IMG/VR virus record: IMGVR_UViG_3300042505_001681
Coordinates: 1 to 29,123 of that record
DNA from: a virus
Reading direction: 5' to 3' (one strand)
Length of the DNA: 29,123 nucleotides
Made by a program: the position numbers and the translations under genes. Positions within the stretch are counted from its first letter, which is position 1, and the number at the start of each line of letters is the position of its first letter. Shown here one piece after another: positions 1,616 to 22,852 of this stretch. The notes beneath the pieces were generated by a model. It made no database searches. It had not been told where the DNA came from and saw only the letters and a list, made by a program, of their open reading frames with translations.

Positions 1616-1652
1616 GTTATTCTGCAATAAACTTTACAAATATAAATATAAG

Positions 1653-2333: not shown

Positions 2334-2339
2334 AAAATT

Positions 2340-2648
2340 TTAATATACACTAACTACCAAATCTGTATGTGTCAATCCATAATCACCTTTCCAGCCTTCC
2401 TCACTAACTCCAAATATTATATGTTCTTCGGTACCTTCTACTCTGTATATCACCATATTTGGATGTTCTTCTGATGTTACTTTCTTGTATTTCACAAACT
2501 TAGCTATTTCTGGGTCCAATAAAAAATCATCAAACAACTTAGTAATCTGGTCTAATGGAGTTTTTCTTACAATAATAACTCCGCGACCATTTCCACCAAG
2601 GTTTCGAACATATTCGACTGCAAATATAAAAAGATTTCTAGGGTTCAT
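2340..2648 (-). CDS. Unknown protein, 102 residues
   Basis: The best start is ATG 2648 (MNPRNLFIFAVEYVRN). A longer version would need a TTG at 2663. The start overlaps the last 11 bases of the sulfotransferase gene (ATGAACCCTAG), implying translational coupling. The protein has a beta/alpha pattern: GRGVIIVRKT, a helix PLDQITKLFDDFLLDPEIAKF, then strands VIYRVEGTEEHIIFGVSEE. No signal peptide, membrane segment or known motif is seen. It lies directly before dut. Confidence 0.65.
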   Translation of the reverse strand: MNPRNLFIFAVEYVRNLGGNGRGVIIVRKTPLDQITKLFDDFLLDPEIAKFVKYKKVTSEEHPNMVIYRVEGTEEHIIFGVSEEGWKGDYGLTHTDLVVSVY

Positions 2649-3249
2649 AATTAAATTTATCAAACATATACTTTTCAGTTTTATATATTATTTCTTTTGA
2701 TTTATCTGATATTGTGCGATTATATTCTTGCATGTTTTTACTTTTTAACAATTTTGGATCGGTGTTAATAATGCATAATAAATGCTGAAATCTTTTTTCT
2801 GCAAATTCTTCCTCTGCGAGTGTCAAAGCTTTATGCAAATCTCCGAAAAGATTTTCTGTTTTGCCAATAAAATTCATCTTTATATTTGAATTGTATAACG
2901 GGTCATCTCCAGTATATCTGGATACGAGTTTAGAATAATGCCCCATCCAAAAAGGACCATATTCTTGGACCCAAGTATCGAAATCCGGGCATGTTCTTTC
3001 CATCAAACTCAATCTGTCTTGTTTGCTCCATTGCCAGAAAGATGGCCACCAAGTATACGGATGACGAACAAAGCAAAAATTGTATGTATTTTCGCTTTCA
3101 ATCATTTGATGAAGAAATAAATGACCATTTTGTGGAGAGTTGTACCTTTTTTTAGCCAATTTCAATCTAAACAAAAGATTTTGCACAACAGTGCCTCCAC
3201 ACTTGGGTATATGAATAAAACTTGATTTATTTAACAAAAGATTGCTCAT
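2638..3249 (-). CDS. Sulfotransferase-family protein
   Basis: The protein (203 residues) has the two PAPS-binding signatures of carbohydrate sulfotransferases. The 5'-phosphosulfate loop is FIHIPKCGGT (11-20), and the 3'-phosphate region is FVRHPYTWW (60-68). After the first loop comes NGHLFLHQM, with His residues of the kind found near the active site of the heparan 2-O-sulfotransferase-like group. The usual reaction is transfer of sulfate from PAPS to a sugar or protein hydroxyl. Its place at the end of a run of glycosyltransferases suggests a sugar substrate, which is inference. Its start overlaps the preceding glycosyltransferase stop (ATGA), so it is cotranslated with it. No PAPS synthesis genes are in the window, so the donor would come from the host. 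Confidence 0.8.
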   Translation of the reverse strand: MSNLLLNKSSFIHIPKCGGTVVQNLLFRLKLAKKRYNSPQNGHLFLHQMIESENTYNFCFVRHPYTWWPSFWQWSKQDRLSLMERTCPDFDTWVQEYGPFWMGHYSKLVSRYTGDDPLYNSNIKMNFIGKTENLFGDLHKALTLAEEEFAEKRFQHLLCIINTDPKLLKSKNMQEYNRTISDKSKEIIYKTEKYMFDKFNYEP

Positions 3250-4430
3250 AGTTTAATAAGCGAGGGTGTAATGTCTCTTAATTCTCCATTTGTTTTTAGT
3301 TTAAATATTCCAAGCATCATTTCGGAATCTGGCTCATACCCATCCGATATGATTGTGCCAAGATTTTGTATGATGCTCATATTTTCCATAGGACTATTGG
3401 CTATAAAATCCTTCTGTGAAAAATACAATAGCATATTGTTTTTGTTTTGCTCAATATAATCGTGATTGAATATGCGAGTTCGTAAATCTACATTAGAATT
3501 TGGCTGTTCTCTGGCTATATATCGTTCTGCCAATATAGAGTTGTCGATATAGATGTGTGTGGCATATGGCTCTATATGATAAATAAAGTTTTCATCAGTA
3601 ACATCTGTAACTACAAATCCAATATTCAGTTTCTTTGATATGATTGGATGTTGATATTGATTATTCTGAATCCAACTCTGCCACTTTCTCATATAATATC
3701 TGGCAGAACGATTTCGCATAGCGTGAAACTTTGGATCTTGTGTTTGCTTTTCGACGCCATCTTGAAACTGCCCACCTCTACAAGTAAAATGATATACAAG
3801 AGCATCCCACGATTGTATCATTTTACATCCACTCAATATCATTCTCTGGAATATATCAGAGTCTTCATAATATGAATGCAGCGTTTCATCGTGCATACCA
3901 ATATCTGTCAATGTCTTTTTGTATGTCAGCCACGGTGCAAATATTCCGTTGGTAATAACATCCTTGTTTTTGACATTCAAGTTATCAACATAAGCATCAA
4001 ACTCACTCTTCTTGAAATCTTCAGGATACATTCCAAAATGCTCTACTATCTTTTCTTTTCCCGCTGGATGTAATGGCGGTTCTATTCTCGTCGCAGCCAC
4101 AACCGTATCCGCCTTTAGATGCTTTATTAGATTAATATCAAATCCCTTGCCCATATACATATCAGCGTGGAACATGCACACAACATCCGAAGTAGATTGT
4201 TCTATGCAGCGATTATATCCATAAGCAATACCTTTATACTCACCTGTAGTATTTTTTGTATATTTTACTTCGGGAGCATTATACTTCAGCCATTCTTCGG
4301 TTCCATCATTGTCGGCATCTATATACACAACTATTTCATACTGAAGTATAGAGTTTTCCTTAATAGATTGTACAGAACCCTTCAAATATCTAAGGTTGTT
4401 TTTTGTTGGCAGGCAGTATGATATTTTCAT
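3246..4430 (-). CDS. GT-A glycosyltransferase, family 2-like, with extra C-terminal domain
   Basis: The first 240 residues are a GT-A nucleotide-sugar transferase. MKISYCLPTKNN forms the first strand, IDADNDGTEEW follows, the metal-binding DXD-type motif is HAD at 88-90 (CMFHADMYMG), and a probable catalytic base is in YYEDSDIF (Glu189/Asp190), followed by VYHFTCRGG. The last 150 residues (from about 245) form a separate domain without an assigned function (NIGFVVTDVTDENFIYHIEP). It is a paralogue of the gene at 4889-5779, with the same order of motifs. The donor and acceptor are unknown. The start overlaps the stop of the 61-residue gene (ATGA). Confidence 0.82.
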   Translation of the reverse strand: MKISYCLPTKNNLRYLKGSVQSIKENSILQYEIVVYIDADNDGTEEWLKYNAPEVKYTKNTTGEYKGIAYGYNRCIEQSTSDVVCMFHADMYMGKGFDINLIKHLKADTVVAATRIEPPLHPAGKEKIVEHFGMYPEDFKKSEFDAYVDNLNVKNKDVITNGIFAPWLTYKKTLTDIGMHDETLHSYYEDSDIFQRMILSGCKMIQSWDALVYHFTCRGGQFQDGVEKQTQDPKFHAMRNRSARYYMRKWQSWIQNNQYQHPIISKKLNIGFVVTDVTDENFIYHIEPYATHIYIDNSILAERYIAREQPNSNVDLRTRIFNHDYIEQNKNNMLLYFSQKDFIANSPMENMSIIQNLGTIISDGYEPDSEMMLGIFKLKTNGELRDITPSLIKL

Positions 4431-4612
4431 GTTTTTCCGTGTTCTATTCCGACTATGTCAAGTAGTTGTTGTTCTTTTTCAGTCATTTCGTTGTATACTC
4501 TATACAACTCTTTTCGTGTCTTGTTGGCAAGTAATCCATCCTTCTCGCCTTCATCAATGCAGCGTTGTAGTTTATAATACAACTCAAAATATTTTTTAGC
4601 AGCCTCTGTCAT
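4427..4612 (-). CDS. Small helical protein, 61 residues, MTEAAKKY start
   Basis: The protein MTEAAKKYFELYYKLQRCID continues with GEKDGLLANKTRKELYRVYN and ends EMTEKEQQLLDIVGIEHGKT. It is almost wholly helical and charged, as in a small two- or three-helix adaptor. I do not recognise it. Its first eight residues are identical to those of the next gene upstream (4609-4905), because both start regions carry the same 25-base repeat. Start and stop overlap the neighbours as ATGA on both sides. Confidence 0.65.
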   Translation of the reverse strand: MTEAAKKYFELYYKLQRCIDEGEKDGLLANKTRKELYRVYNEMTEKEQQLLDIVGIEHGKT

Positions 4613-4613
4613 A
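4589..4613. repeat. 25-base direct repeat, copy 1
   Basis: These 25 bases (beginning atattttttagcagcc and ending ctgtcata) are identical to 4882-4906. The copy covers the start codon and first eight codons (MTEAAKKY) of the 61-residue gene. The copies lie 293 bases apart, flanking the whole 98-residue gene. Confidence 0.9.
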
Positions 4614-4905
4614 ATTTTTCATTTACTATAGTTGCTTCAAATTCTTCAATATAGCACCATTCACCATCCCACCGTTCTTCTCCAACGGCATAACCAATGT
4701 TCTGTTCGCCAACATTATCTTCACATACCCGAACTCCTCTAACAAATAGACCTGCCTCCTTTATTGCCGTTTGCCATTGCTCTAATGTAATGCGATACAA
4801 ATCATTCGGCGGATTGGAATAATAATCATATACTTCGGTTCCTGCTTTGAACCAAGTATCATGTTTGGCGATCAATTTTACATATTTTTTAGCAGCCTCT
4901 GTCAT
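4609..4905 (-). CDS. Unknown protein, 98 residues, MTEAAKKY start
   Basis: The protein begins MTEAAKKYVKLIAKHDTWFK and then changes to a mixed domain with LYRITLEQWQTAIKEAGLF, VCEDNVGEQNIGYAVGEE and RWDGEWCYIEEFEATIV. Only the first eight residues resemble the following gene; the rest is unrelated. The start at 4905 overlaps the last 17 bases of the upstream glycosyltransferase, and the stop overlaps the next start as ATGA. No known family is recognised. Confidence 0.65.
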   Translation of the reverse strand: MTEAAKKYVKLIAKHDTWFKAGTEVYDYYSNPPNDLYRITLEQWQTAIKEAGLFVRGVRVCEDNVGEQNIGYAVGEERWDGEWCYIEEFEATIVNEKL

Positions 4906-4906
4906 A
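4882..4906. repeat. 25-base direct repeat, copy 2
   Basis: This copy is identical to 4589-4613. It spans the stop codon of the upstream glycosyltransferase (4889-4891) and the first eight codons of the 98-residue gene. The exact identity over 25 bases suggests a recent duplication or recombination event at gene starts. Confidence 0.9.
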
Positions 4907-5779
4907 TAATTCTGGATTGTTATTATAGCGAGTTCGCATTTGTTCTGACACTTTTATGAAACCAACTTCATCATATGATGGCGGTTCTCCCCATAATGTC
5001 AACCAAGTTTTAAAGTTTTTCTGTTCGCTTAACTTTTGTCTATCGGATGTACCAACCAGTTTGTCGTGCTGTCCAAGAAAATGACTACTACGTGCTCCAA
5101 AATGCCATACAAGTGCTTTTGAAGTAACCACAAAGTCGTATCCTTTTATCTGCATCAATACATTCTGCATCATATCCTCATACGATGTAGGAGCAAATCG
5201 AGCATCGTTATTTATGAAATACTTGGTTCGCATCATATATGATACGCCTTCTACTTTTCTAAAACCAGATGGGTTTGGCGATTGTACGAAATGATCGGCC
5301 CAATATAGAAACTCCTCTTTTAGAAAATCGTGATGATATACACCAAAACCACCATTTACGGGGGCAAACATTGTTCCAACCCTATCTTCGTTGTTGAATA
5401 TGTTGGGCTCAAGACGCCAAGCACAAGCAACTAACGGTTTTTCTGTGCTTGAAACAAGATCAAGTAATGGCTTATCGTAATGGCGGCTAATATAAAAATC
5501 ACTATGAATGAGGCTAAAGTATTCTGTTTTGACTTGCTTGATTGCTTCATTTACACCTCCTCCTATACCTTTTGGGACTTGGTTATATTCTACAATGGAA
5601 GTTATGTCACCCTGATGTTTCAACCATTCTGCGGTTTCTTCATCATTTTCAACATATACCAAAATTGGTTGTTTTTTATAAAAAGCATTTTCTCGTATGG
5701 ACTCCACCGCGAGCTTGAGATATGGAAGTGAGCGAAAAGTATTAATCAGCCAAGAGAACTTTATATCATTATTATTCAT
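4889..5779 (-). CDS. GT-A glycosyltransferase, family 2-like
   Basis: The 296-residue protein has a GT-A domain: FSWLINTFRSLPYLKLAVESI at the N-terminus, VYVENDEETAEW (41-52), GIGGGVNEAI, and a DXD-type motif HSD at 92-94 (SLIHSDFYIS). A probable catalytic pair is in SYEDMMQ (Glu201/Asp202), followed by LVWHFGARSSHF. It would transfer a sugar from a nucleotide donor in the cytoplasm. The donor is unknown. It resembles the gene at 3246-4430 in motif order but lacks that protein's C-terminal domain. The start at 5779 overlaps the end of the upstream glycosyltransferase by eight bases. Confidence 0.82.
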   Translation of the reverse strand: MNNNDIKFSWLINTFRSLPYLKLAVESIRENAFYKKQPILVYVENDEETAEWLKHQGDITSIVEYNQVPKGIGGGVNEAIKQVKTEYFSLIHSDFYISRHYDKPLLDLVSSTEKPLVACAWRLEPNIFNNEDRVGTMFAPVNGGFGVYHHDFLKEEFLYWADHFVQSPNPSGFRKVEGVSYMMRTKYFINNDARFAPTSYEDMMQNVLMQIKGYDFVVTSKALVWHFGARSSHFLGQHDKLVGTSDRQKLSEQKNFKTWLTLWGEPPSYDEVGFIKVSEQMRTRYNNNPELYDRGC

Positions 5780-6542
5780 ATTTTTCAGCTTCTGCTCTAA
5801 GAGCCATATAATCGTTGTACATATTTGTTTTTACAAAGAAATTCTTCATTCCAGTTTCAGCAAGGCGGCAATATGTTGGAATATCCAGTCCAGCTACACC
5901 TCTTTTTACTGTAAGAGAATTGTGATGTAGAATACAGGCTCTATCAACTACACCAATCTTATATCCAAGTTTTTTAGCAGTCAGAGCAAACAGCCAATCT
6001 GGTCCCCATCCGTACATAAGGTCCGAATCTATATTTCCAACCGCTTCAATCAATCTACGAGAAATAAGAGGGCACTGAAAATCGGAATATACAACTTGTC
6101 TTATTTCCTTAGAACATCTGCTATGCATTCCTTTCCAATGACATTGTTGATTTGGTTCTATGTTATAGAAAGATGGAGCAACAATATCATACTTTATTTC
6201 TAGACTTCCCCACTTTCCGGCGAATATCTCATCGAACATTTCTTCTCTTAGCGTTCTTACAAACTCATATGGATGAATTGTAAGGTCATTGCTAAGAAAC
6301 AATAAAGAATCATATTGCGGATTTTCTTTTACAAACTCCATCGAGGCATTCAATCCGCCTCCAAAATATACATTTGTTTCCAACTGAAATGAAGTATATT
6401 TGCTTCTACCTTCAGGTTTAGATGCGTTATCTAATACAAACAACTCATAATCGTCTCTTTCATACGGCTTTAGAGACTCATACAGCATATCTGTATAGTC
6501 TGGTAAGTTGTGATTTAGAATGATTGCGGCGGTTTTACCCAT
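5772..6542 (-). CDS. GT-A glycosyltransferase, family 2-like (rhamnosyltransferase-type pattern)
   Basis: The start at 6542 (MGKTAAIILNHNLPDY) is preferred over ATG 6557, because a good ribosome site GGAGGA lies about eight bases before it. The 256-residue protein shows VLDNASKPEGRSKY (37-50), FGGGLNASMEF and a DXD-type motif SND at 84-86 (LFLSNDLTIHP). A later segment, YGWGPDWLFALTAKKLGYK, matches the D/E-D region of family 2 enzymes, followed by ACILHHNS. The donor is unknown. The start overlaps the stop of the membrane-protein gene by eight bases. This is one of the clearest Shine-Dalgarno sites in the window. Confidence 0.82.
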   Translation of the reverse strand: MGKTAAIILNHNLPDYTDMLYESLKPYERDDYELFVLDNASKPEGRSKYTSFQLETNVYFGGGLNASMEFVKENPQYDSLLFLSNDLTIHPYEFVRTLREEMFDEIFAGKWGSLEIKYDIVAPSFYNIEPNQQCHWKGMHSRCSKEIRQVVYSDFQCPLISRRLIEAVGNIDSDLMYGWGPDWLFALTAKKLGYKIGVVDRACILHHNSLTVKRGVAGLDIPTYCRLAETGMKNFFVKTNMYNDYMALRAEAEKYE

Positions 6543-6960
6543 AACTGGTTCCTCCATTGAATATTTTCATTTTGATACTTTTGCCAGACATCTCGGCGGG
6601 TTCTATAAAGAACTTCTTGTCTGGTTGCGTAATGCTAAAAAACAGCTCAAGTTCTTCTTCGTCATCCGCAAACATCATAAACGATTCTTCTGTTCCACTT
6701 TCTCTGCATTTGAACAGGTTGTATTTCGTAGTTGCTACAGTAGTATATCCTTCTCTATGCTTCATTGCCTCGGATATAATCATAAATTCGGCTGCAATGA
6801 TTGCTGCTACTTGTATAGTTGTTACAATATTAGTGCGCCAAGTGTCATTCAGTATAGCGTCCTTTATATAGAATAAAGACATACCCATTAGCGGCAGACC
6901 AATGATGGAAAATATAACCATCAAATAAAAATACAAACTTTTCTTTGGTTTAGAAGTCAT
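6535..6960 (-). CDS. Membrane protein with two N-terminal helices
   Basis: The 141-residue protein has two hydrophobic helices, at about 10-31 (YFYLMVIFSIIGLPLMGMSL) and 45-63 (IVTTIQVAAIIAAEFMIIS). A soluble C-terminal part follows with an acidic stretch (FADDEEELELFFSI). It probably sits in the inner membrane with the C-terminal domain in the cytoplasm. I do not recognise the family. It has its own promoter, so it can start a second transcription unit inside the glycan island, and it overlaps the next glycosyltransferase. A scaffold for glycosyltransferases or a role in membrane export is speculation. Confidence 0.65.
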   Translation of the reverse strand: MTSKPKKSLYFYLMVIFSIIGLPLMGMSLFYIKDAILNDTWRTNIVTTIQVAAIIAAEFMIISEAMKHREGYTTVATTKYNLFKCRESGTEESFMMFADDEEELELFFSITQPDKKFFIEPAEMSGKSIKMKIFNGGTSYG

Positions 6961-6971
6961 ACGATATTTAA

Positions 6972-6999
6972 ATCATAGCTAATTATGCCATATTGTCAA
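6972..6999 (-). promoter_or_regulatory. Promoter of the membrane-protein gene
   Basis: On the minus strand TTGACA (6999-6994) is followed after 16 bases by TATGAT (6977-6972). The ATG at 6960 lies 11 bases past the -10 box, so the leader would be only about four bases. This lies in the 48-base gap after the upstream glycosyltransferase and would supply transcription of the distal island genes and dut. Confidence 0.65.
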
Positions 7000-7008
7000 T
7001 CTATAGTA

Positions 7009-7887
7009 TTATATGGATTTTATTATATCTATGATTTGTTGAGCACGAGTTTCTGCACGATGATGTACATTTACTTTGCTGTATATTCTTTCTGCCATAG
7101 TTTCACGAACATATTCGTTATTTAACAAATACTCTATTTTTTCAACAGCTTCTTTTGGAGTAGAATAATACATTATATCTTTACCATCTACAAATAGGTC
7201 ATATATCCCCGTGGATGTAGATATTCTATTTGTAACTACGGCAAGTTTGCAGCCGCCCGCCTCAAATAATCTACGAGTTACTTCGTCGTATCTGGCATAC
7301 TGAAACGCAACTGTGCCAGAATTATAAAATGATGTATTTTCTTGAGCAGGTATTTTTTTGTTTATGAACTTATCACCAAGCGCAGATTGAACATAATCCA
7401 CACCGGGTCTATCTCCACAAGTTGTGATACATACGTTCTTTCTGGGAATTTCTTCTTTATATTTAAATAAAAACTCATCTCCCCAGTGGTTGAGCCAATG
7501 AACGTGTTTAAATCCCATCTCCTTATATCTTGCACAACATCTCGCGTCCGGTGTATATATCGCATCCGCTATTTTTGCTCGCTCAAATCCCTGACCAAAT
7601 GTCTGTGGCTCGTCTCCCATATCAAGTATCAGTTTTGTTTTACTAATAGTCTTTAGTTTATTTAGAGAACTATCGAGAGAAGGCGATGTCCAAGGCCAAA
7701 AAACGCTTACGAAGTCATATTTTTCTATATTTGGATACAATCTATCCAAATTACAGTTAGCGGCATCAAACTTATATACATCTACGTTATGTCCCAATCG
7801 CTTGAAGGCAAATGAAAGTCCGAGAGGACAGTTCCAATACTCCTCTGGTTGATTTTCATCTCCGTGCCACAACATTGCTATGTTCAT
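7009..7887 (-). CDS. GT-B glycosyltransferase, CgeB-like
   Basis: The 292-residue protein looks like the CgeB/Glyco_trans_1_2 group of GT-B enzymes. The N-terminal Rossmann-like half starts MNIAMLWHGDENQPEEYW and has LSFAFKRLGHNVDVY. The C-terminal half has RRLFEAGGCKLAVV (206-219), LFVDGKDIMYYSTPKEAVE (231-249) and a typical tail with RETMAERIYSKVNVHHRAETRA in segments. These match the donor-binding half of that group. It would add a sugar of unknown type. The start overlaps the SDR stop as ATGA, and the gene ends 49 bases before the membrane-protein start. Confidence 0.8.
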   Translation of the reverse strand: MNIAMLWHGDENQPEEYWNCPLGLSFAFKRLGHNVDVYKFDAANCNLDRLYPNIEKYDFVSVFWPWTSPSLDSSLNKLKTISKTKLILDMGDEPQTFGQGFERAKIADAIYTPDARCCARYKEMGFKHVHWLNHWGDEFLFKYKEEIPRKNVCITTCGDRPGVDYVQSALGDKFINKKIPAQENTSFYNSGTVAFQYARYDEVTRRLFEAGGCKLAVVTNRISTSTGIYDLFVDGKDIMYYSTPKEAVEKIEYLLNNEYVRETMAERIYSKVNVHHRAETRAQQIIDIIKSI

Positions 7888-8708
7888 AGTTTTTCAAGTA
7901 TCTTATCCACCGCCTGAAATATAGTGTATTTTTGACGAAATCCAAGATTTCTTATCTTTTCGCAATCCATAAAGAAGTTCGGTGCTTGAACTATTTGATG
8001 AAACTCTGGTACATCAACGTATGTTATTTTACTTGTAGATCCGGTTTTTTTGATTGCATAATCAATGATTTCGACAAGTTTAATGCTTTCTTCTGTACCT
8101 ATGTTATATATTTCATTCAATTTTCCACTGTAAGTCACCAAGTTTATCGCAGCGCATACATCTTCAACGTGCATGAAGTTTCTGTAATTGTCACCTTTGT
8201 ATATGCTTACTGGCTCGTTTCTGACAATGTTTCCGATAAGATATTCCAATGCGTTTTTCTTTTTTCCTGCACCAACATCTCCGCCAATTACATTACACAA
8301 ACGTAATATTCTATAATTTCTGTGGAATGTGCGGCAAAACGACTCTGTTAAGTCTTCTGCTGTTTTTTTGGTGATTGAATAAAATCCTTTGGGATTACAC
8401 GGGTCTCCTTCCTTGGCTGGGCGATATTTGGTGTATCCCTCGCCATATACAAACCAGCTACTTACAAAGTTGAACGTGCCTTGAACGTTTGGCAATACAT
8501 CCATTAGCTTATTGAGATTGGTATTGATATCCTTATGAAGATCATCAAAGACATGATAATTGTGAGTTGTGCTAATAAGATACAGCACATCTTTCAAATT
8601 CTCGGACCAATTTTCGTCGCGAGGCATTATTATGCTTTTTTGCGGATATAGTTTGGCAAAATTGCTGCCAACAAATCCAGAGCCGCCGAATATTGTTAGT
8701 TCGTCCAT
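7884..8708 (-). CDS. NAD(P)-dependent sugar epimerase/reductase (extended SDR)
   Basis: The 274-residue protein is an extended short-chain dehydrogenase. The nucleotide loop is FGGSGFVGSNF (7-17), the catalytic Ser region is FVSSWFVYGE (81-90), and the YxxxK pair is Tyr110/Lys114 (GFYSITKK). FMHVEDVCAAINLV is the usual late motif of the family. Such enzymes act on nucleotide-linked 4-keto sugars as epimerases, dehydratases or 4-reductases. Its gene overlaps the end of the RfbH/E1-like gene by 13 bases. Together with that neighbour, this suggests the final 4-keto reduction or an epimerisation in 3,6-dideoxyhexose synthesis, as with CDP-abequose or paratose synthases. The exact reaction is inference. 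Confidence 0.82.
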   Translation of the reverse strand: MDELTIFGGSGFVGSNFAKLYPQKSIIMPRDENWSENLKDVLYLISTTHNYHVFDDLHKDINTNLNKLMDVLPNVQGTFNFVSSWFVYGEGYTKYRPAKEGDPCNPKGFYSITKKTAEDLTESFCRTFHRNYRILRLCNVIGGDVGAGKKKNALEYLIGNIVRNEPVSIYKGDNYRNFMHVEDVCAAINLVTYSGKLNEIYNIGTEESIKLVEIIDYAIKKTGSTSKITYVDVPEFHQIVQAPNFFMDCEKIRNLGFRQKYTIFQAVDKILEKL

Positions 8709-10006
8709 GTTGATAATACGGTTTCAATATGATTTAGATTATCCGAAGATATTGTTGGAGCACAGCCTAAAAAGAATACAAGATCAAGAACTTTGTTTGA
8801 TTCTGGATATTTCTTATAATCGTCGAGATGCTTGTATCCATTATGCACAAGCAAGTTTCCAGCAAAATAGTTTCTTGTCTGAACACCGTTCTTTTCCAAG
8901 AACGTAACGAGCGTTTCTTTTTGCTTTTTATCTCTGCAAATAATAGGCACGCCAAAAGGAACCCAATCTGTTTCAGCAAATGTGTTTGGAAAATTCAAAC
9001 CATCGACATACTTCTTCAATGCAGATTGTATTGCGTCTTTATTAGATTGTCTTGTCTTACAGATATAATCAAGTTTCTTTAACTGCTCTAGTCCTATAGC
9101 GCCTTGGAGGTCCAGCGGTTTCAAGTTCCAGCCGATTCTATTAAACACATATTTATGATCAATGATAAGCTCTGGGAACTCTGGTAACCAGTTTGAAAAT
9201 CTCTTATTACACGAACCGTTACACAACAAGTTGGCTGCTCCCACGCAATAGCAATCTCTACCCCAAGTAGCAAAACTTCTGGCCAAATCAACAATTTCCT
9301 GTATATCCGAGGATACCATTCCACCTTCAAGTGTTGTTATTTCGTGTGCTGGATAAAAAGAACAACTGGATACTACGGCATATTCGTTCAAATATTTCCC
9401 TCGCCACTTAGAACCAAGAGAATCGCAATTATCCAACAAAAGTTTAAGGTTATGCTTTTTGGTAATAGCGAGCATTTCATCCATGTCAGGAGGATTCCCC
9501 AATACTGGACTCAAAAATACTGCTCTGGTTTTTTCATTTATCTTTTCTTCGATCTTTACCAAATCAAAGTTCAATGTAGACCATTCAATGTCTATAAACA
9601 CAGGCTTTAGATTATTGTGTACAATTGCAGATACAGTAGTTGGAAATCCTACCGCAGAAACAATGATTTCATCGCCATCTTTCCATCCAAAATACTCTTT
9701 GCACGCAGCAATCAATAGTAAGTTGGCACTTGATCCGCTATTGCAAAAGAACGAAAACTTATTATTGATATGTCTTCCAAACTCTCGCTCAAATCTTGCA
9801 CAAGTTTCTCCGGACGAAGACCATTTGCCAAAAAGCAAAGTTTCTATCGCAGCAACAAGTTCTGTTTCATCAAAGTATGGGCCAGAATAATACACTCTCT
9901 TTTTGTCTTTCGCCACAAGATTGTGGGCAAATTTGGGAACAACCCCGTGTTTTTGTTGCATGCTAGCAACAAATTCTTGTATGTCTTTAGTATAGTCTGA
10001 ATTCAT
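8696..10006 (-). CDS. rfbH: RfbH/E1-type NDP-4-keto-6-deoxyhexose 3-dehydrase, iron-sulfur and PMP
   Basis: This DegT/DnrJ/EryC1-fold protein (436 residues) has His221 in place of the PLP-binding Lys (SFYPAHEITTLEGG, 216-229), the mark of the 3-dehydrases that remove the C3 hydroxyl of nucleotide 4-keto-6-deoxy sugars. The four cysteines known to hold the [2Fe-2S] cluster in the Yersinia E1 enzyme occur here as Cys194, Cys252, Cys254 and Cys262. This is exactly the C-X57-C-X1-C-X7-C spacing. Asp192 fits the residue that binds the cofactor ring nitrogen. The enzyme belongs to CDP-3,6-dideoxyhexose synthesis (abequose, paratose, tyvelose, ascarylose). Neither its reductase partner nor a 4,6-dehydratase is in the window. 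The symbol is by homology; the nucleotide and sugar are not proven. Confidence 0.9.
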   Translation of the reverse strand: MNSDYTKDIQEFVASMQQKHGVVPKFAHNLVAKDKKRVYYSGPYFDETELVAAIETLLFGKWSSSGETCARFEREFGRHINNKFSFFCNSGSSANLLLIAACKEYFGWKDGDEIIVSAVGFPTTVSAIVHNNLKPVFIDIEWSTLNFDLVKIEEKINEKTRAVFLSPVLGNPPDMDEMLAITKKHNLKLLLDNCDSLGSKWRGKYLNEYAVVSSCSFYPAHEITTLEGGMVSSDIQEIVDLARSFATWGRDCYCVGAANLLCNGSCNKRFSNWLPEFPELIIDHKYVFNRIGWNLKPLDLQGAIGLEQLKKLDYICKTRQSNKDAIQSALKKYVDGLNFPNTFAETDWVPFGVPIICRDKKQKETLVTFLEKNGVQTRNYFAGNLLVHNGYKHLDDYKKYPESNKVLDLVFFLGCAPTISSDNLNHIETVLSTWTN

Positions 10007-10011
10007 AACTT

Positions 10012-12804: not shown

Positions 12805-12808
12805 TATA

Positions 12809-13243: not shown

Positions 13244-13244
13244 A

Positions 13245-14612: not shown

Positions 14613-15430
14613 TAATATACTTCAAATCCCCCGTAATTTATTTCTTTTTGCCAATCAGTTCTATCAAAATTCAACTTTACAGATTTTCCGTCTACGATTT
14701 GTATTGGATACCCAACGTCCTTCATTATAATATCAAGTAAATCTTTTTTCTCTCTTGGAATAGCTACGTGATCACACGGATATTCATTGTTTATTCGGAC
14801 CAGTATATAATCCAACGACAAAATTTTATTGAGCAATGTTTCTGAACTCTGCCCAAAACAATTCAACCACTGGTTTTCGACTTCAATAAACATAATAGGT
14901 CTAGAATTTTGAATAAGTTTTTCGGCACCTTCCAATAAAAATATCTCAGATCCTTGTACATCTATTTTCAAGAATGATACACCCGAACTTATAACTTCGT
15001 CAATTTTTATCATTTGTACTACATCCCCGCCACCACCAATTTTAGTTGCTCCTATATTAATTCCTTGAGGTCTATCTACGTCAACATAGTCCATTTGAAT
15101 CATTTTGTTCTCATTCCCTAACGCCACATTGAAACAAAATACATTTCGTAGGTCGTTGATGAATACATTACCACATAGCTGTTGATATATTACTCTCAAT
15201 GGTTCAAATGCCAAAACTTTTCCGGCGGGTCCAACCATTTTTGCCATCGTTACTGCATGATATCCCAAGTTTGCTCCGCAATCCAAACAAATATCTCCGG
15301 GTTTTATTACGTTTTTGGCTACATTATAAAAATGTGGCTCAAAATCTCCATTGTTCATCAATGCCTGCCCCAGTGCGTCGTTTGGCAATATCAAAAACTT
15401 ACCGTGTCTGGCTTCTATTATGTTTGGCAT
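14612..15430 (-). CDS. FkbM-family SAM methyltransferase
   Basis: The 272-residue protein has the FkbM signature. The SAM loop is CLDCGANLGYHAV (48-60), the acidic strand is VLAFEPL (72-78), and the typical FLKIDVQGSEIFLLEGAE runs over about 153-170. FkbM enzymes O-methylate sugars or polyketides, and in surface-polysaccharide loci they usually methylate sugar hydroxyls. Methylating a glycan made by this operon is the likely role. The gene ends in TAA sharing a base with the next start, and is two bases from the upstream glycosyltransferase. Confidence 0.88.
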   Translation of the reverse strand: MPNIIEARHGKFLILPNDALGQALMNNGDFEPHFYNVAKNVIKPGDICLDCGANLGYHAVTMAKMVGPAGKVLAFEPLRVIYQQLCGNVFINDLRNVFCFNVALGNENKMIQMDYVDVDRPQGINIGATKIGGGGDVVQMIKIDEVISSGVSFLKIDVQGSEIFLLEGAEKLIQNSRPIMFIEVENQWLNCFGQSSETLLNKILSLDYILVRINNEYPCDHVAIPREKKDLLDIIMKDVGYPIQIVDGKSVKLNFDRTDWQKEINYGGFEVY

Positions 15431-15431
15431 A

Positions 15432-16376
15432 TTATTTTATGAATACTTCTTCAAATTGCTTCATCACGTTGGATGGAGAAAATTTTAATGAATAACAATC
15501 CCAGTCTATATCTTTAACATACTCTTTGTCAATTTGTAATAAGTATGAAGTTAGTTCTTGTTCGTTTTTATATTTCAACGCCTTTTCACCAAGCATATGC
15601 AAGTGCGCTTTCATATACCACCCATATCCACCGTCATATGTAAGTACTGGTTTGTTGAAAGAAGAAAATTCCGCGACCGCCAACCCGAACGTTTCGCCGT
15701 CACTTCGAGCGTGTATCATGGCATCGCACGTATTTATAAACTCACTTTTATACATCAAATTTGGATTGAATGGTAAAAATTTTACTTTTGGGTGAGAAAC
15801 AAATGGTTTAGTATTCAAAAATACGGCATATAAATCGTTTCTTTTTTCAATCGCAGTTATCAATGCTCGGTGCGCGATTTGTAAATCAAATTGATTGTAT
15901 CCACCCAATCTTCCCAATACGAAAGCATTTTTTGGTATTCCAAGTTCGTCGTGCAGACTTTCGTTTGTTTTTGGTAGATTTATTATATGCGGAACCCATA
16001 ATGGCTGATTAAACATTTTTGCTAACCATTCGCTTACGCCAGCGTATACATTGCCATGTGGTTCTGTCATACTGAATATACAGTGGATTGCGGTTTTACA
16101 ATTTGATGGGGTAGTTCCTTCATTTTTTCCGCCCGCCTTTATCATATAAAACAGATCTATTTTTTCACGTTCTACCAGAATTGGAATCTCACTTTCATTT
16201 TCATATAGATGATAGTTCAACCCATCAAACTTTTCCATTGGGCAAGTTGATTTTGATCTAGAACTCATTATGATTGGGTTATGACCAAGGCAGTCTCTTA
16301 TTCCCATATAATAGTCGTATGGCACTGTACCACAGCCTCGGTGATCAAGTTGTTCTACATGTATTGCTATTTTCAT
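15432..16376 (-). CDS. GT-B glycosyltransferase, GT4-like
   Basis: The start at ATG 16376 (MKIAIHVEQLDHRGCGTVPY) is preferred. It shares one base with the SDR stop (TAATG), and upstream extension would duplicate SDR coding space. The 314-residue protein has a GT-B layout, with the E-x7-E motif of retaining family 4 enzymes in SDGETFGLAVAEF (Glu228 and Glu236). GRLGGYNQFD marks the start of the donor-binding half. It would transfer a sugar from a nucleotide donor. The N-terminal half contains several Cys and a segment KAGGKNEGTTPSNCKT of unknown use. Confidence 0.84.
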   Translation of the reverse strand: MKIAIHVEQLDHRGCGTVPYDYYMGIRDCLGHNPIIMSSRSKSTCPMEKFDGLNYHLYENESEIPILVEREKIDLFYMIKAGGKNEGTTPSNCKTAIHCIFSMTEPHGNVYAGVSEWLAKMFNQPLWVPHIINLPKTNESLHDELGIPKNAFVLGRLGGYNQFDLQIAHRALITAIEKRNDLYAVFLNTKPFVSHPKVKFLPFNPNLMYKSEFINTCDAMIHARSDGETFGLAVAEFSSFNKPVLTYDGGYGWYMKAHLHMLGEKALKYKNEQELTSYLLQIDKEYVKDIDWDCYSLKFSPSNVMKQFEEVFIK

Positions 16377-17110
16377 TAGGTCATTCTTCGTAGAGTATAA
16401 ATCTCCTTGGATAAATCCTTGAAGTTTCTCCAACAATCCCACTTTGCACTTATAAATTTACCAGAAACACCGTCACTTTCATCGGAAATTAACCATTCGA
16501 CCAACTGCATAGCCGGTTCGGGGTCATCTCCGCTTTCGCTTTGACGCTTGGCTTTTTCGTATTCCTGAATACCAATTATTTCTTGCCCAGCATTTATTGG
16601 ACCATCAACGATTCCGGTCTTTATAGCGCCGGGAGCTATTGCGTTAATATCCAAGGTTGGCTCTTCCAAAGCCATCGTTTCCACCAATCTAACTACGGCA
16701 GTTTTTGCTACTGCGTATGCAGAAAAATATGCTCTGCCATTTCCAGCACCACCTCCAGCCATGCATACTATCTTTTGACGTTTGTTGGTACACATCAATG
16801 GATAAAATTCTTTCAAAACATTATATGTTCCATCCAAGTTTATTCTTATTGTTTGTGACCAATTTTCTGGATTTGTCTTTGACACCTTTCCCAATTCACC
16901 CTGCGTCCCCGCACACGTAATGATTGCATCAAAATAAACATCGCAATCAAGAAAGTAGTTAGACCATCCACGTACTTCTTCTATATTTGACACATCGCAA
17001 GGATATTTTGAAGAACGAGAAAGACCATAGACATTGTGTCCATTTTTCTCAAATCTATCGGACAGCATCTTTCCAATACCAAAAGTATTACCTGTTATTA
17101 GAATGTTCAT
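16376..17110 (-). CDS. Short-chain dehydrogenase/reductase (classical SDR)
   Basis: The start ATG 17110 (MNILITGNTFGIG) gives a normal classical SDR of 244 residues; the longer frame adds an unrelated N-terminus. Motifs are TGNTFGIG (6-13), CAGTQG (66-71), RINLDGTYNV (89-98), then MAGGGAGNGRAYFSAYAVAK, with Tyr132 and Lys136 as catalytic YxxxK, and NAIAPGAIKTG (156-166). The glycine-rich MAGGGAG stretch is seen in an SDR branch frequent in polysaccharide loci. It would reduce or oxidise a sugar-linked ketone. The gene overlaps the end of the UDPGDH-like gene by 23 bases. Confidence 0.84.
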   Translation of the reverse strand: MNILITGNTFGIGKMLSDRFEKNGHNVYGLSRSSKYPCDVSNIEEVRGWSNYFLDCDVYFDAIITCAGTQGELGKVSKTNPENWSQTIRINLDGTYNVLKEFYPLMCTNKRQKIVCMAGGGAGNGRAYFSAYAVAKTAVVRLVETMALEEPTLDINAIAPGAIKTGIVDGPINAGQEIIGIQEYEKAKRQSESGDDPEPAMQLVEWLISDESDGVSGKFISAKWDCWRNFKDLSKEIYTLRRMT

Positions 17111-17831
17111 CGTTCGATTTCTTGATTGATGGGATGAGAGACAGTCCAAGATTGTATTTTTGATCCAATTGAATGAGGTTATGTATTTCTCTTCCAAGTG
17201 TGTCGTTGGTATATGGACCACCGGCTTTTAGATAAGACAACTTACCTATGCGTTTGTCTGTTTGCAATCCTGCGGTTATATCTGACGAATTTGCTCCCAC
17301 CGCCTTTGCAACTTTATCTATTTCATTTATAAATGCAATAGACATTGCCAAATATGAATTCAATGCGTGTTTTACCATTTCAGCAGATTCCAAACTCATC
17401 CAAATTATATTAGAAGACAATGGACGAAACAATTCGGTAAGTACATCTTTTGAGAATCTATCACATCCAACAACAATTCGTTCTGGGTTCAGAAAATCAT
17501 TTATTGCTCTACCTCGCCTTAGATTTTCTGGAGAACAGGCAATTCTGATATCTGTATATACGTTCTCTAGCATTCTGCACGTTCCAACTGGAACTTGGGT
17601 AGATATCAAAGCAATAGCATTATTTTTGGCAAATGGAAGTACTCTTCCCAACCATTCAAATATGATTCTTGAATCTGGCTTTCCGTCCTTATCGACCGGT
17701 GTATCATAGCAAACCCAAATAACGTCACTATCTCCAACCTTAGAATCATCAACATTTACTTGATGAAATTGTTCCATACAAGCGGCAGTTATATATGCCA
17801 AATGTCCGTGTCCTATTACTGATATTTTCAT
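17088..17831 (-). CDS. Truncated nucleotide-sugar dehydrogenase-like protein without the catalytic Cys
   Basis: The 247-residue protein belongs to the UDP-glucose/GDP-mannose dehydrogenase family. It has an NAD loop ISVIGHGHLAY, the pattern ISTQVPVGTCRML, CSPENLRRGRAINDFLNPER (99-118) and the central helix ESAEMVKHALNSYLAM with Lys154 and Asn158. The catalytic loop of the family, GxGFGGSCLPKD, aligns here with GGPYTNDTLGRE (204-215), so the cysteine is Thr211, and the following Lys and Asp are Arg and Glu. The usual C-terminal UDP-binding domain (about 150 residues) is missing. Full four-electron oxidation to a uronic acid is therefore unlikely. It may oxidise once, act as an epimerase or be a binding protein. 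Confidence 0.8.
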   Translation of the reverse strand: MKISVIGHGHLAYITAACMEQFHQVNVDDSKVGDSDVIWVCYDTPVDKDGKPDSRIIFEWLGRVLPFAKNNAIALISTQVPVGTCRMLENVYTDIRIACSPENLRRGRAINDFLNPERIVVGCDRFSKDVLTELFRPLSSNIIWMSLESAEMVKHALNSYLAMSIAFINEIDKVAKAVGANSSDITAGLQTDKRIGKLSYLKAGGPYTNDTLGREIHNLIQLDQKYNLGLSLIPSIKKSNDEHSNNR

Positions 17832-17834
17832 AAT

Positions 17835-18518
17835 TTATCCTTGTCCCATGTTAGCTTGTTTGGACCAGTTTTGGTTATAAAACAGGTTTTGCGCACGTTG
17901 CCTGTCTATTGTTTTGTCATGAATAATAGACCATTCAACTTCTTTAGGAAGCATAGTTACATACTCAGCACCAATCACAGTCTCGTGTAGCGGTTTTTGC
18001 CATTGTACCTTTAGGCTATTTTTATATATACGAGATTGATAATCACCGTGATTCCAGTTTACTATTGGCTCATTACCAAAATATTCTGGTAGTGTACTAA
18101 GATGCCATCCCCACATAGCTGCATCTTGTGAAGTAGCTCCTCTTACAATATTTACTCTTGGAACTCTGTACAATTCAACTTTTGGATTAGACATTATCAA
18201 TTCTTGCATATTATACAACAGTTCAGGCCACAGATATTCATCCGCGTCCAACTGGACTATATAATCTCCTACACAACGTTTACTTCCATAGTTTTTATGT
18301 TCGGAAAAGTTTTTATTTAGTGCATGTTGAATTATACTAAAGCCATAGTTTTTAGCTTTTTCCAGTATCTTTTTAGTACCTTCGTTATCAGAAAAATCAT
18401 CAAGAATGACAACTTCGTCGTTCGGAGCATTAAAATCGATGTGAGTCTTGAGCTTCTCGATTAGTTCAAGAAGCTCAAGTGTCTCATTTTTACACGTAAC
18501 CAAATAACTTATTTTCAC
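17835..18518 (-). CDS. GT-A glycosyltransferase, family 2, WaaE-like
   Basis: The 227-residue protein starts with GTG at 18518 (MKISYLVTCKNETLELLELI), overlapping the preceding stop as GTGA. Family 2 motifs are VVILDDFSDNEGT (36-48), NFSEHKNYGSKRC and the metal motif VQLDADEYL (88-96) with Asp91 and Asp93. A late KPLHETV matches the WaaE/KdtX type of core-oligosaccharide glucosyltransferases. It would add a hexose to a growing chain on the cytoplasmic side. The donor is not proven. The tail is short and hydrophilic. Confidence 0.85.
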   Translation of the reverse strand: MKISYLVTCKNETLELLELIEKLKTHIDFNAPNDEVVILDDFSDNEGTKKILEKAKNYGFSIIQHALNKNFSEHKNYGSKRCVGDYIVQLDADEYLWPELLYNMQELIMSNPKVELYRVPRVNIVRGATSQDAAMWGWHLSTLPEYFGNEPIVNWNHGDYQSRIYKNSLKVQWQKPLHETVIGAEYVTMLPKEVEWSIIHDKTIDRQRAQNLFYNQNWSKQANMGQG

Positions 18519-19813
18519 GACGTTGTCGGAGTTATTTTTTTGAATTTTGGAAGCGTAATTCCTACCTTCTTCTCAAACACGGGGAGATGTTTGTCTAAGA
18601 CATCTACCAATACTTTTCCAGCAGCTTCAAGACTAAACTTTTCTGCATTTTGAACACGCAGTTTTTCGGCGTTTGGAATATAATTGATATAGTTTGTGTA
18701 TATATCTTCCAATTTCTGTGCAGCAACGCTGTAGTTTGCATTAAACCACTGACCTTCTTTTACCAGCCATTCGTTGCACGCACTCGGAGGTACGTTGACC
18801 ATTGTACCGGGTAACAAGTTTGCAAGATTATCTGGAAGAAAATCTACGTGACCGCTCCAATTAGTAGTAAGTAGTGGTTTTCCGCTTAGAGTTGCCTCTA
18901 GCAACGGTCTTCCGAAACCTTCTCCGTGAGTAAGACTGACGTGAGCTTTTACCTTTGGATGGTTATACAAACGATTCAATTCAGTCGGAGCCAGTTCGCC
19001 GTGTATAATATATATATTTGGAAGAGTTCCAGACAGTGGGGCACGAATGTCATTTATTTTCTTAAGTATTTCGGTTTTATCTATTTTGGAGAATGTTGCT
19101 CCGCTAGTCTTGAGAATTAACGCGGGTGCATTTTTCTTGTTTTTAAATACTTCGCTGAAGATCTTGATCAACATTCCGACATCTTTTCTATCTGCACCTA
19201 GGTCGCCTTGGATCCAATGTCCTACGAATAGATAGCAGAATGTTTCTGGGATCGCATTTAGCGCAGAATCTATTTCTTCGGACGGTTCATTAGTTTTTTT
19301 GTAAATACTTGTATCTACTCCTTCAAATACAACTTCAATAGGTTTATTGAGTTGAATCTTGTCCGTCATTCCCGTTCTTTCATCTCTACGGTCGTATGCA
19401 GTTTTTACAAATACTTCCTTAGAAAAGTTTGAAGGAACAATATTCAAGTTCATTCTATTCAGACCTTCAACCCATTCTGGCTTTGGTACAGTACTTTCAA
19501 TACCTGCCGTAACGCCAATATTATATTTTCCGCGTGGCTGGAACTCGTTGGGAATAGATACTTGAACAAATAATTCAGGCTGTGCGGTTAAGTTGGTAGT
19601 TAGTATTCTGCTCTTTATTTCTTTGACCATAGGACGACTTTCGTCATCCAACATCGTATTGGGACACACTCCCCATCGCATTGGTACGATCTTAACGTCA
19701 AACTTATCATACTTTATGATGTCTGCCGCAATTGCAAATGTATGGTCGCCATATCCAGAGCGAGATGCTATTGGACCTTGTATGACACATACTGGTTTAA
19801 TTTCGTTGCTCAT
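18515..19813 (-). CDS. GT-B glycosyltransferase, GT4-like
   Basis: The 432-residue protein has the GT-B architecture. The N-terminal half has VCVIQGPIASRSGYGDHTFA, and the donor-binding half has LFVGHW (195-200) and the E-x7-E motif THGEGFGRPLLEATLSGKP with Glu298 and Glu306. WSGHVDFLPD follows, as in many family 4 enzymes. The reaction is transfer of a sugar with retention from a nucleotide donor. The ribosome site before the ATG is the A-rich AAAAGGTTATATAA. It is separated by 19 bases from the small coiled-coil gene. Confidence 0.87.
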   Translation of the reverse strand: MSNEIKPVCVIQGPIASRSGYGDHTFAIAADIIKYDKFDVKIVPMRWGVCPNTMLDDESRPMVKEIKSRILTTNLTAQPELFVQVSIPNEFQPRGKYNIGVTAGIESTVPKPEWVEGLNRMNLNIVPSNFSKEVFVKTAYDRRDERTGMTDKIQLNKPIEVVFEGVDTSIYKKTNEPSEEIDSALNAIPETFCYLFVGHWIQGDLGADRKDVGMLIKIFSEVFKNKKNAPALILKTSGATFSKIDKTEILKKINDIRAPLSGTLPNIYIIHGELAPTELNRLYNHPKVKAHVSLTHGEGFGRPLLEATLSGKPLLTTNWSGHVDFLPDNLANLLPGTMVNVPPSACNEWLVKEGQWFNANYSVAAQKLEDIYTNYINYIPNAEKLRVQNAEKFSLEAAGKVLVDVLDKHLPVFEKKVGITLPKFKKITPTTS

Positions 19814-19832
19814 TTATATAACCTTTTTTTTA

Positions 19833-20024
19833 TTATGGTGCTGTACCGGGTGTGTTTTGACCTTCTTGTTCTTGAATAATCGCTTCCATCTCGGACTTAA
19901 CATCGTTGATGCGATCCTTGAAGTCAGTCATAACAACTCGCTTTTCCATTTCGATTTCACGAAGTTGCTTGGCAAGTTCGTAGATTTTTGTCTTTGCTTC
20001 TTCTTTAGTCAATGCTTTAGCCAT
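19833..20024 (-). CDS. Small coiled-coil protein, 63 residues
   Basis: The sequence MAKALTKEEAKTKIYELAKQ continues through LREIEMEKRVVMTDFKDRIN to a final QEGQNTPGTAP. The helical heptads from about 5 to 52 predict a coiled coil, with a short flexible Gly/Pro tail. It lies between two glycosyltransferase genes, eight bases from the one upstream. I do not recognise a family. It could pair with a larger protein as a small adaptor, which cannot be tested here. Confidence 0.65.
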   Translation of the reverse strand: MAKALTKEEAKTKIYELAKQLREIEMEKRVVMTDFKDRINDVKSEMEAIIQEQEGQNTPGTAP

Positions 20025-20032
20025 AATATTAT

Positions 20033-21511
20033 TTATTTGTTATATTTTTTTAGTACTTCATCTTTGTTAATCTTTGGAATCGGAAATCCAAGACTGTTGT
20101 TTGGCATATTGTGCCCAACATATTCGTCGTGACGATGAAGATTAAATCTTTCGCGACCTTTCCAGTTTGCCATCATATTTTCTAAGCCAGATGCCATTTT
20201 TTCACACATGCTTTCTGCACTTAGTCCACCAACTCCGCACATCCATTCTCTACCTTCCAGTGCATACTCAAGGCGCTTTTCCTTGCTGGTCAAATACCAA
20301 TACATAAATGCTTCAGCACAATCTTCCCACTTGGCATAATCGGCAAGAATATATGGAGTAGGAATACTACCTTGCATCATTCTTGCACCCGGAAAGATTG
20401 GTGTAACCCATCTACCGTGTTTCTTATATCTACCATCGGCATTAGTTCCCCATCCATTTTCAAATTGGACAGGATTTCCGGCATCGTCTGTAAATCCGCA
20501 CTGGTCCTGAAGTCCTCCCGTAACCGTGACGATGATTGGAGTACCCGCCATTACACTCTCCGCAGTGGCAATACCAAATCCCTCGTTGTCGGAAAGATTT
20601 ACCGTCACATCTGCCATGTTGTAAAGTTGATTCATTCTTTCTGGCAGAACCTTTTCAACACTGAACACTACATCATAATTCGGGCAAAATGCCTGCTTAC
20701 ACGCGGGCAAATCAGTGCCTGCTTCATCTACTGGGTGTGTATGTAGAAACAATACGCACTTTGCTGCTTCTTCTTTTGGTAGATTGTCGCAGAATGCTCT
20801 GTAGGCAAGCATTATTGTACTGGTTTGCTTACGACGAATATTTCTATTGTTATAGAATATTACAAACTTATAGTCCTTCTTGAAATACTGTCTACGTATT
20901 AGTTGCAGTTCACTTAGTTCAGCATCTGTGGTCAACGGTCTAAACATCTTGCGATTGATGCCGTGCGGTACATACGATACAGTTGTAGGATTATTTAGTG
21001 TAGTTCCAAGAATATTCTTTACGATATTTTCTGTCTGCTTGCTGATACAACCAATCCAATCGCACGATTCATAATATGGACGATTATACATAGGATATGG
21101 AAGATCGTCCCAGATGCTATAGAACCCGATTGGAATCTTCTGACGCAATTCACGCTCGATTTGATATAACCAGATCCAAAAACGCGGATCAGTAAAATGA
21201 AGCAGCGCATCAGGCTTTTCCATCTTAATAACTTCGTTTAGAAGATTGGCGTCGCCATAACCATCAACCGGATATAGGCGAACGTATGCGTCGTCTATGC
21301 CAGCAACTTGGTTGGTGGCTTGGTCAAGATTCATTATCTTGCCTTTTTCAGGATGCGTAACGCTACCTGCCATTTGTACCCAGTTGTATTTGCCTGCCAA
21401 GCCTGTAACAAACTCTCTTGCCATTGTAGCAATACCAGAATGCATTCTCAGGTCATCGCAAAGCAGTATAATCTTCTTTCTGTCCTTCTGAGGAATATAA
21501 CTATTTACCAT
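20033..21511 (-). CDS. GT-B glycosyltransferase, GT4-like, first gene of the glycan operon
   Basis: The 492-residue protein has the family 4 layout. The N-terminal half includes KKIILLCDDLRMHSGIATMA, with the Gly-containing acceptor loop, and HFTDPRFWIWL. The donor-binding half has VIFYNNRNIRRKQT (217-230), LHTHP and the E-x7-E motif SDNEGFGIATAESVMAGTP (Glu310 and Glu318). An unusually long insert with many aromatic residues lies around 335-395 (HGRWVTPIFPGARMM). It is longer than most family members. It is the first gene read from the promoter at 21524-21551, with AAGG just before the start codon, so it probably leads the island. Confidence 0.88.
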   Translation of the reverse strand: MVNSYIPQKDRKKIILLCDDLRMHSGIATMAREFVTGLAGKYNWVQMAGSVTHPEKGKIMNLDQATNQVAGIDDAYVRLYPVDGYGDANLLNEVIKMEKPDALLHFTDPRFWIWLYQIERELRQKIPIGFYSIWDDLPYPMYNRPYYESCDWIGCISKQTENIVKNILGTTLNNPTTVSYVPHGINRKMFRPLTTDAELSELQLIRRQYFKKDYKFVIFYNNRNIRRKQTSTIMLAYRAFCDNLPKEEAAKCVLFLHTHPVDEAGTDLPACKQAFCPNYDVVFSVEKVLPERMNQLYNMADVTVNLSDNEGFGIATAESVMAGTPIIVTVTGGLQDQCGFTDDAGNPVQFENGWGTNADGRYKKHGRWVTPIFPGARMMQGSIPTPYILADYAKWEDCAEAFMYWYLTSKEKRLEYALEGREWMCGVGGLSAESMCEKMASGLENMMANWKGRERFNLHRHDEYVGHNMPNNSLGFPIPKINKDEVLKKYNK

Positions 21512-21523
21512 ATATAACCTTGT

Positions 21524-21551
21524 ATTATGTTTTAAATCTGCGTTATGTCAA
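21524..21551 (-). promoter_or_regulatory. Promoter of the glycan operon
   Basis: On the minus strand TTGACA (21551-21546) and CATAAT (21529-21524) are 16 bases apart. The start codon at 21511 is 12 bases from the -10 box. The leader would be about five bases. The promoter sits directly after the ribbon-helix-helix-like gene and would drive the long run of genes to at least 7009. Confidence 0.65.
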
Positions 21552-21556
21552 ATTAT

Positions 21557-21810: not shown

Positions 21811-21835
21811 GGTTTTCCGTATATATAAAAAACTA

Positions 21836-22846: not shown

Positions 22847-22852
22847 AAAATC

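Follow-up and report, generated by a model that had tools for sequence, protein, structure and literature searches.

The window analyzed here is the complete linear record of IMG/VR virus IMGVR_UViG_3300042505_001681, 29,123 bases in length. Positions 2638-21511 hold an island of 21 open reading frames (ORFs) that encode proteins of 98-492 residues and are all on the minus strand; from 4609 to 18518, neighboring ORFs overlap or sit 1-48 bp apart. A first-pass annotation made from the sequence had described about 20 co-oriented, overlapping genes at this locus, which agrees with the 21 mostly overlapping ORFs found. The same sequence was present in three further metagenome contigs (G001-G003) at 99.88-99.95% identity, one of them covering the entire window, and an assembly artifact was thereby ruled out.

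Gene families were called with Pfam, NCBIfam and PHROGs. Six glycosyltransferases (GTs) exceed their Pfam cut-offs (GT2a, GT2b, GT1_2, GT2c, GT4b and GT4a) and two fall below them, namely GT4c (23.1 versus 26.4 bits) and a DUF707-related protein (22.8 versus 24.1 bits). Three tentative transferases, the N-terminal half of the product of 11446-12804 and the products of 10012-10728 and 10718-11449, had no Pfam transferase match. The eleven glycosyltransferases counted by the first-pass annotation can be reached by adding these groups together, but the firm count is six. The non-transferase content comprises an RfbH-type 3-dehydrase, an epimerase-type short-chain dehydrogenase (SDR), a classical SDR, a HAD-nucleotidyltransferase fusion, two methyltransferase domains and a marginal sulfotransferase (PF03567, 22.3 bits versus a cut-off of 22.0). 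The accessory enzymes named earlier were clear for the dehydrase, SDR, nucleotidyltransferase and FkbM methyltransferase, and marginal for the sulfotransferase. At the level of protein families, these data support the proposed capacity for oligosaccharide synthesis and methylation and, probably, sulfation.

A conserved transferase core beside replication genes

Three glycosyltransferases form the core of the island: GT4a (20033-21511; PF00534, E = 5.5e-10), GT4b (18515-19813; PF00534, 26.7 versus 26.4 bits) and GT2c (17835-18518; PF00535, E = 2.1e-18). The upstream anchor of the island is a PD-(D/E)XK exonuclease (21836-22864; PF12705, E = 3.7e-18), and a clamp-loader subunit of T4 gp62 type lies at 24443-24952 (phrog_225, E = 1.1e-15), both also on the minus strand. 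The sole sequence match of GT4a in the Protein Data Bank (PDB) was the chlorella-virus protein B736L (3oy2; E = 7e-10 over about 120 residues), and a secondary match was to GT4-conflict.

A GT4a profile recovered at least 593 relatives on viral contigs. Among 84,980 genomes it recovered seven loci, all on contigs of metagenome-assembled genomes and mostly phage-like. Each of these seven loci had an exonuclease match upstream of GT4a, and GT4b and GT2c downstream; a gp62 match was present in six and adjoined the exonuclease in five of the seven as listed. When the profile was run against 198 genomes of one bacterial order at E = 1e-40, 197 gave no match, and the sole match was in a genome already known to hold such contigs.

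Neighborhoods on viral contigs were counted for the 80 best-scoring GT4a loci, which are not a random sample. In 68 of the 80, the exonuclease lay upstream of GT4a at a distance of no more than 1.5 kb. Where the contig was long enough, gp62 was found upstream in 55 of 65 loci, GT4b downstream in 59 of 60 and GT2c downstream in 42 of 43. Most of the 87 loci examined carry the order gp62-exonuclease-GT4a-GT4b-GT2c, and the order from exonuclease to GT2c also occurs in phages isolated on Flavobacterium (immuto) and Microcystis (Mel-JY01). Pairwise GT4a identities correlate with those of the exonuclease (rho 0.70) and of gp62 (rho 0.61), values reached in 0 of 200 permutations; such a correlation with replication genes is expected for shared descent. 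By these profile and neighborhood comparisons, GT4a is a phage-lineage gene fixed beside replication genes.

Island types and an exchanged cassette

Complete islands of related contigs occupy the same site, between the exonuclease and, downstream, a dUTPase (1680-2333, minus strand; PF00692, E = 1.9e-38). Five island types were distinguished: A, the window; B, contig G008; C, G006; D, G004/G005; and E, G007. The dUTPase adjoins the island in all five. Also kept in all five are GT4a, GT4b, GT2c, GT4c, the GT-A half of 11446-12804, the 10718-11449 protein (distant in type D), RfbH, EPIM, GT1_2, the small membrane protein at 6535-6960, the DUF707-related protein, GT2b and GT2a. Variable in presence are the genes for the UDP-glucose dehydrogenase-like protein (UGDH), the classical SDR, FkbM, the HAD-nucleotidyltransferase fusion (HAD-NTP), a short phosphodiesterase-like protein, the 10012-10728 protein and the sulfotransferase. 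In type D a GT_PLOD-type protein replaces the putative sulfotransferase, and type E holds two such putative sulfotransferases and a radical SAM protein (L039:11432-12235), perhaps another sugar-modifying enzyme.

Comparison of the window with type B at the DNA level delimited a swapped central cassette at 9943-17119, its genes all on the minus strand. Identity was 95.6% over 1-9942 and 97.5% over 17120-29123, and within the 7-kb cassette only patches at 65-84% and unmatched DNA were found. This alignment shows that near-identical phages have exchanged a cassette encoding transferases, methyltransferases and sugar-nucleotide enzymes.

A separate observation concerns the type C island, which holds a protein with the homing-endonuclease-associated NUMOD3 motif (L028:10891-11781) that could promote cassette exchange.

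A candidate deoxysugar block

The genes for GT1_2, EPIM and RfbH are adjacent in all five island types. RfbH (8696-10006) resembles the RfbH/DdhC-type 3-dehydrases of nucleoside diphosphate (NDP)-4-keto-6-deoxyhexoses (NF011936 RfbH, 347.5 bits, E = 9e-104); because this score lies under the NCBIfam equivalog cut-off of 423, the protein is RfbH-like rather than a certified RfbH. When it was aligned with the CDP-4-keto-6-deoxyglucose 3-dehydrase 3bcx, the active-site His that replaces Lys was found in the motif SFYPAH, and GRDCYC...C...C matched the [2Fe-2S] cysteines. The His and the iron-sulfur cysteines are retained in all five types. A search for RfbH in the 198 genomes of one order at E = 1e-100 gave no match and, lacking a positive control, is uninformative.

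EPIM (7884-8708; PF01370, E = 7.2e-23) is an epimerase-type SDR in which the Thr-Asp-Glu of 4,6-dehydratases has become Ser-Trp-Phe, with Tyr and Lys retained. Assignment as a 4,6-dehydratase was set aside because the acidic residues are absent, and EPIM is probably a 4-ketoreductase or epimerase. GT1_2 (7009-7887; PF13524, E = 1.3e-21) is a GT-B glycosyltransferase and the candidate 3-deoxy sugar transferase. The adjacency of the three genes in every type suggests that the phage converts a host nucleotide sugar into a 3,6-dideoxyhexose and itself attaches this sugar.

Phage flanks and phage identity

Besides the dUTPase, exonuclease and gp62, the flanks encode an IMPDH-family protein, a dNMP kinase of T4 gp1 type, an HNH nuclease, an Rnl1-type RNA ligase and a UvdE-type endonuclease. 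The T4-type genes in the window are those for gp62, the Rnl1-type ligase and the dNMP kinase; this 29-kb fragment stops short of the capsid genes, and terminase (PF03237) was not found in it. T4-type gp23 capsid protein is encoded in all five related records of 144-365 kb. Judged by its gene content, the window is probably a fragment of an uncultured T4-like phage, with the island in the replication region.

Because the island is flanked on either side by replication and nucleotide genes of phages and GT4a is nearly confined to phage contigs, the earlier view that the island is phage-encoded is upheld and a bacterial O-antigen or capsule locus lying between host genes is ruled out.

The UvdE-type UV-damage endonuclease (28043-29002) lies close to the island and is retained in relatives. 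The RNA ligase between UvdE and HNH is missing in the type C contig G006 (L008:4901-2475 side) and in locus L014, and is present in the other relatives. The type E relative G007 also encodes a 1,126-residue protein (L038:11570-14950) with RCC1-like (regulator of chromosome condensation) repeats and weak matches to tail proteins.

Other island genes

At the downstream end of the island, the putative sulfotransferase (2638-3249) had no PDB match; its motifs PKCGGT and RHPY..WPSF recur, somewhat varied, in relatives. It is followed by GT2a (3246-4430; PF00535, E = 7.7e-14) and by a small protein (4609-4905) with no Pfam or PHROG family, which is kept in types B and D and had no match in types C and E. 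GT2b (4889-5779; PF00535, E = 8.6e-8) precedes the GT2-like, DUF707-related protein (5772-6557; PF05212 under its cut-off), in which N-terminal GT-A-like motifs were recognized by eye. The small protein at 6535-6960 has hydrophobic segments, with a Kyte-Doolittle 19-residue maximum of 2.08; all other island proteins reach 1.44 or less, and it is the only membrane protein of the island.

Beyond RfbH, the product of 10012-10728 is tentatively a GT-A-like transferase. It belongs to no family, and its structure model (predicted local distance difference test [pLDDT] score 56.5) gave GtrB/ArnC as the best Foldseek matches (E about 2e-4, template modeling score 0.45), weak GT-A support from a model too poor to decide. 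The conserved protein at 10718-11449 carries a transferase-like VEDDY motif and is 42% identical to a Mel-JY01 island protein; its assignment is likewise tentative, and its structure model (pLDDT 47) was unusable. The product of 11446-12804 joins a GT-A-like domain to a C-terminal methyltransferase (PF13489, E = 1.1e-8), and its N-terminal half stands alone in relatives as a protein of about 253-276 residues.

A short protein (12809-13243) resembles by eye the N terminus of glycerophosphodiesterases and matches a PHROG without assigned function (phrog_34507, E = 1.6e-26). It adjoins HAD-NTP also in loci L081 and L109. HAD-NTP (13245-14612) fuses a HAD phosphatase-like domain (PF13419, E = 7e-28) to a sugar nucleotidyltransferase (PF00483, E = 1e-9) and is 47-58% identical to proteins of Synechococcus phages over its full length, a similarity suggestive of exchange between phages. 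The FkbM methyltransferase (14612-15430; PF05050, E = 2.6e-18; TIGR01444, E = 2.8e-27) is followed by the GT4-like GT4c (15432-16376; PF00534 under its cut-off), present in two copies in type C.

The classical SDR (16376-17107; PF00106, E = 6.8e-24) had no match in types B and D; its ORF extends to 17221, and the first ATG of the domain lies near 17107. Last before the core is a short UDP-glucose/GDP-mannose dehydrogenase-like protein, UGDH (17088-17831; PF03721/PF00984), whose 247 residues hold the N-terminal and central domains and lack the C-terminal UDP-binding domain. The catalytic Cys is also missing, GGSCFPKD of 3gg2 aligning to PYTNDTLGREI, and synthesis of UDP-glucuronate by this protein was set aside because both features are absent. 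In types C and E (G006 and G007) the short form is equally long, with 69% identity in type E, and is thus no fresh pseudogene.

The acceptor of the glycan

Collectively, the sequence comparisons point to a modular glycosylation island, carried by a T4-like phage in its replication region, for which the likeliest acceptor would be a virion protein (capsid, tail or fiber), a reading in which we place about even confidence. The core enzymes would place the first sugars on a cytoplasmic acceptor that the phage makes. RfbH and EPIM would then convert a host NDP-4-keto-6-deoxyhexose to a 3,6-dideoxyhexose that GT1_2 could add, and methyl groups, sulfate and further sugars supplied by the variable genes would complete the chain. 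Cassette exchange would alter the outer glycan of the virion, like a serotype switch. In the chlorella-virus group, the source of the PDB match of GT4a, capsids carry virus-made glycans. A broader proposal, offered tentatively and with rather less than even confidence, is that a widespread T4-like lineage pairs a fixed glycan-initiating core by its replication genes with an exchangeable cassette, so that virion glycans, 3-deoxy, methylated and perhaps also sulfated, may differ from phage to phage and serotype may switch by module exchange.

By Kyte-Doolittle analysis the island transferases have no membrane segment, and neither a flippase nor a lipid-carrier initiating transferase was found among the island proteins of the window. 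Flippases and initiators of WbaP and WecA/MraY type (PF01943, PF02397 and PF00953) were also absent from 16 related records, which are possibly fragments, while control genomes were positive. These absences speak against a surface-polysaccharide pathway that is self-sufficient, but export by host machinery would be compatible with them.

Several points weigh against a virion acceptor and the chemistry proposed for it. The island lies among replication genes, where the DNA glucosyltransferase genes of T4 also lie. The small membrane protein at 6535-6960 is kept in all five types, and the 4,6-dehydratase and E3 reductase that RfbH chemistry requires were not seen in the window. Family membership, moreover, cannot reveal sugar substrates or acceptors.

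The placement of the core beside gp62, the exonuclease, the dUTPase and the dNMP kinase of T4 gp1 type would also suit glycosylation of the phage DNA, in which a modified base would be made, GT4a and GT4b would add the first sugars, the variable genes would extend them and the genome would be shielded from restriction. Such glycans are known on phage DNA (Pyle 2024, as cited in PMC12619734), immuto carries a thymidylate synthase and a 7-deazaguanine pathway, and the secondary match of GT4a to GT4-conflict points the same way. However, the thymidylate-synthase/hydroxymethylase family PF00303 was found in 2 of 16 carriers and in none of the 365-, 202- and 144-kb records, which are possibly incomplete. 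GT4a and GT4b match GT4-type families and no DNA glucosyltransferase family in Pfam or PHROGs, and methylation, sulfation and frequent cassette exchange fit an exposed surface better. We consider a DNA acceptor unlikely, though a serious alternative.

It is improbable, though still worth weighing, that the island acts on the lipopolysaccharide (LPS), capsule or exopolysaccharide of the infected host, remodeling it so as, for instance, to prevent superinfection or re-adsorption to debris. Prophage serotype-conversion systems act in this way, and the window holds GtrB-like PHROG matches, enzymes similar to those of O-antigen and LPS synthesis (RfbH, FkbM, GT2 and sulfotransferase) and the one retained small membrane protein. 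Set against these are the absence of a flippase and lipid-carrier initiating transferase from the 16 records and the lack of a membrane-anchored transferase in the island. In addition, the core is shared by phages of two bacterial phyla, Bacteroidota and cyanobacteria, which differ in their surface glycans; its recurrence in the same order suggests that the acceptor belongs to the phage and not to the host. Unrelated auxiliary genes gathered loosely, without a common product, would account for the high gene turnover between relatives, but this reading is very improbable given co-oriented, overlapping genes, an order kept in five types and retained active-site residues.

Glycosyltransferases are common in large phages and are usually listed as scattered auxiliary genes without an assigned target. 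In the island they instead make up a syntenic system of phage lineage, conserved at its start and replaceable in its middle, which phages of different bacterial phyla share. If a virion protein is the acceptor, cassette exchange would let these phages change the sugars of their coat, comparable to O-antigen variation in bacteria. Two carriers, immuto and Mel-JY01, have been isolated, and the target is hence testable.

Comparison with known systems

Close parallels are found in these two isolates. Flavobacterium phage vB_FspM_immuto (Immutovirus; NC_055915, about 49.2-60.0 kb) has the same exonuclease-GT4a-GT4b-GT2c order, with glycosyltransferases 46, 43 and 33% identical to those of the window, and its core is likewise followed by aminotransferases, a methyltransferase, an epimerase and a GT2a homologue (37%). 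It differs in having about ten glycan genes, in DegT proteins annotated as WecE-like rather than RfbH and in having no sulfotransferase, FkbM or HAD-NTP gene annotated at its island. Microcystis phage Mel-JY01 (PP395634, about 81.4-89.7 kb) carries the exonuclease, GT4a, GT4b, GT2c and a homologue of the 10718-11449 protein in order. Its island is shorter and annotated only as putative glycosyltransferases and hypothetical proteins, and an IMP dehydrogenase gene lies between exonuclease and GT4a. GT4a is split there into two ORFs (L023:15019-16510), and a similar split occurs in locus L014 (6851-7660 and 7660-8163).

Chlorella-virus B736L comes from a eukaryotic virus and matches GT4a in the C-terminal, donor-binding half only. 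Two further systems are similar in description. The moraphages of a 2025 study are large aquatic phages, mostly with predicted Bacteroidota hosts, that have four core putative glycosyltransferase families, together with variable regions; that article does not decide whether they act on DNA, host or virion, and the parts consulted describe no glycan island (PMC12619734). Mycobacteriophage enzymes decorate virion proteins (Freeman 2023, as cited in PMC12619734), which is the mechanism proposed for the island, in a different phage group.

The ten or so glycan genes of immuto at the same site, the shorter set of Mel-JY01 and the four moraphage families make the contrast drawn by the first-pass annotation, that known phages usually use one or a few transferases, overstated; its interpretation as a whole is partly supported. 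The conserved core, the swapped cassette, the missing membrane export genes and the absent catalytic Cys of UGDH go beyond what that annotation could show. In the literature searched, no direct study was found of the island described here, of Mel-JY01, of immuto glycans or of phage glycan islands. Relative to these systems, the additions are a core that belongs to a phage lineage, the constant position of that core and the exchange of the cassette.

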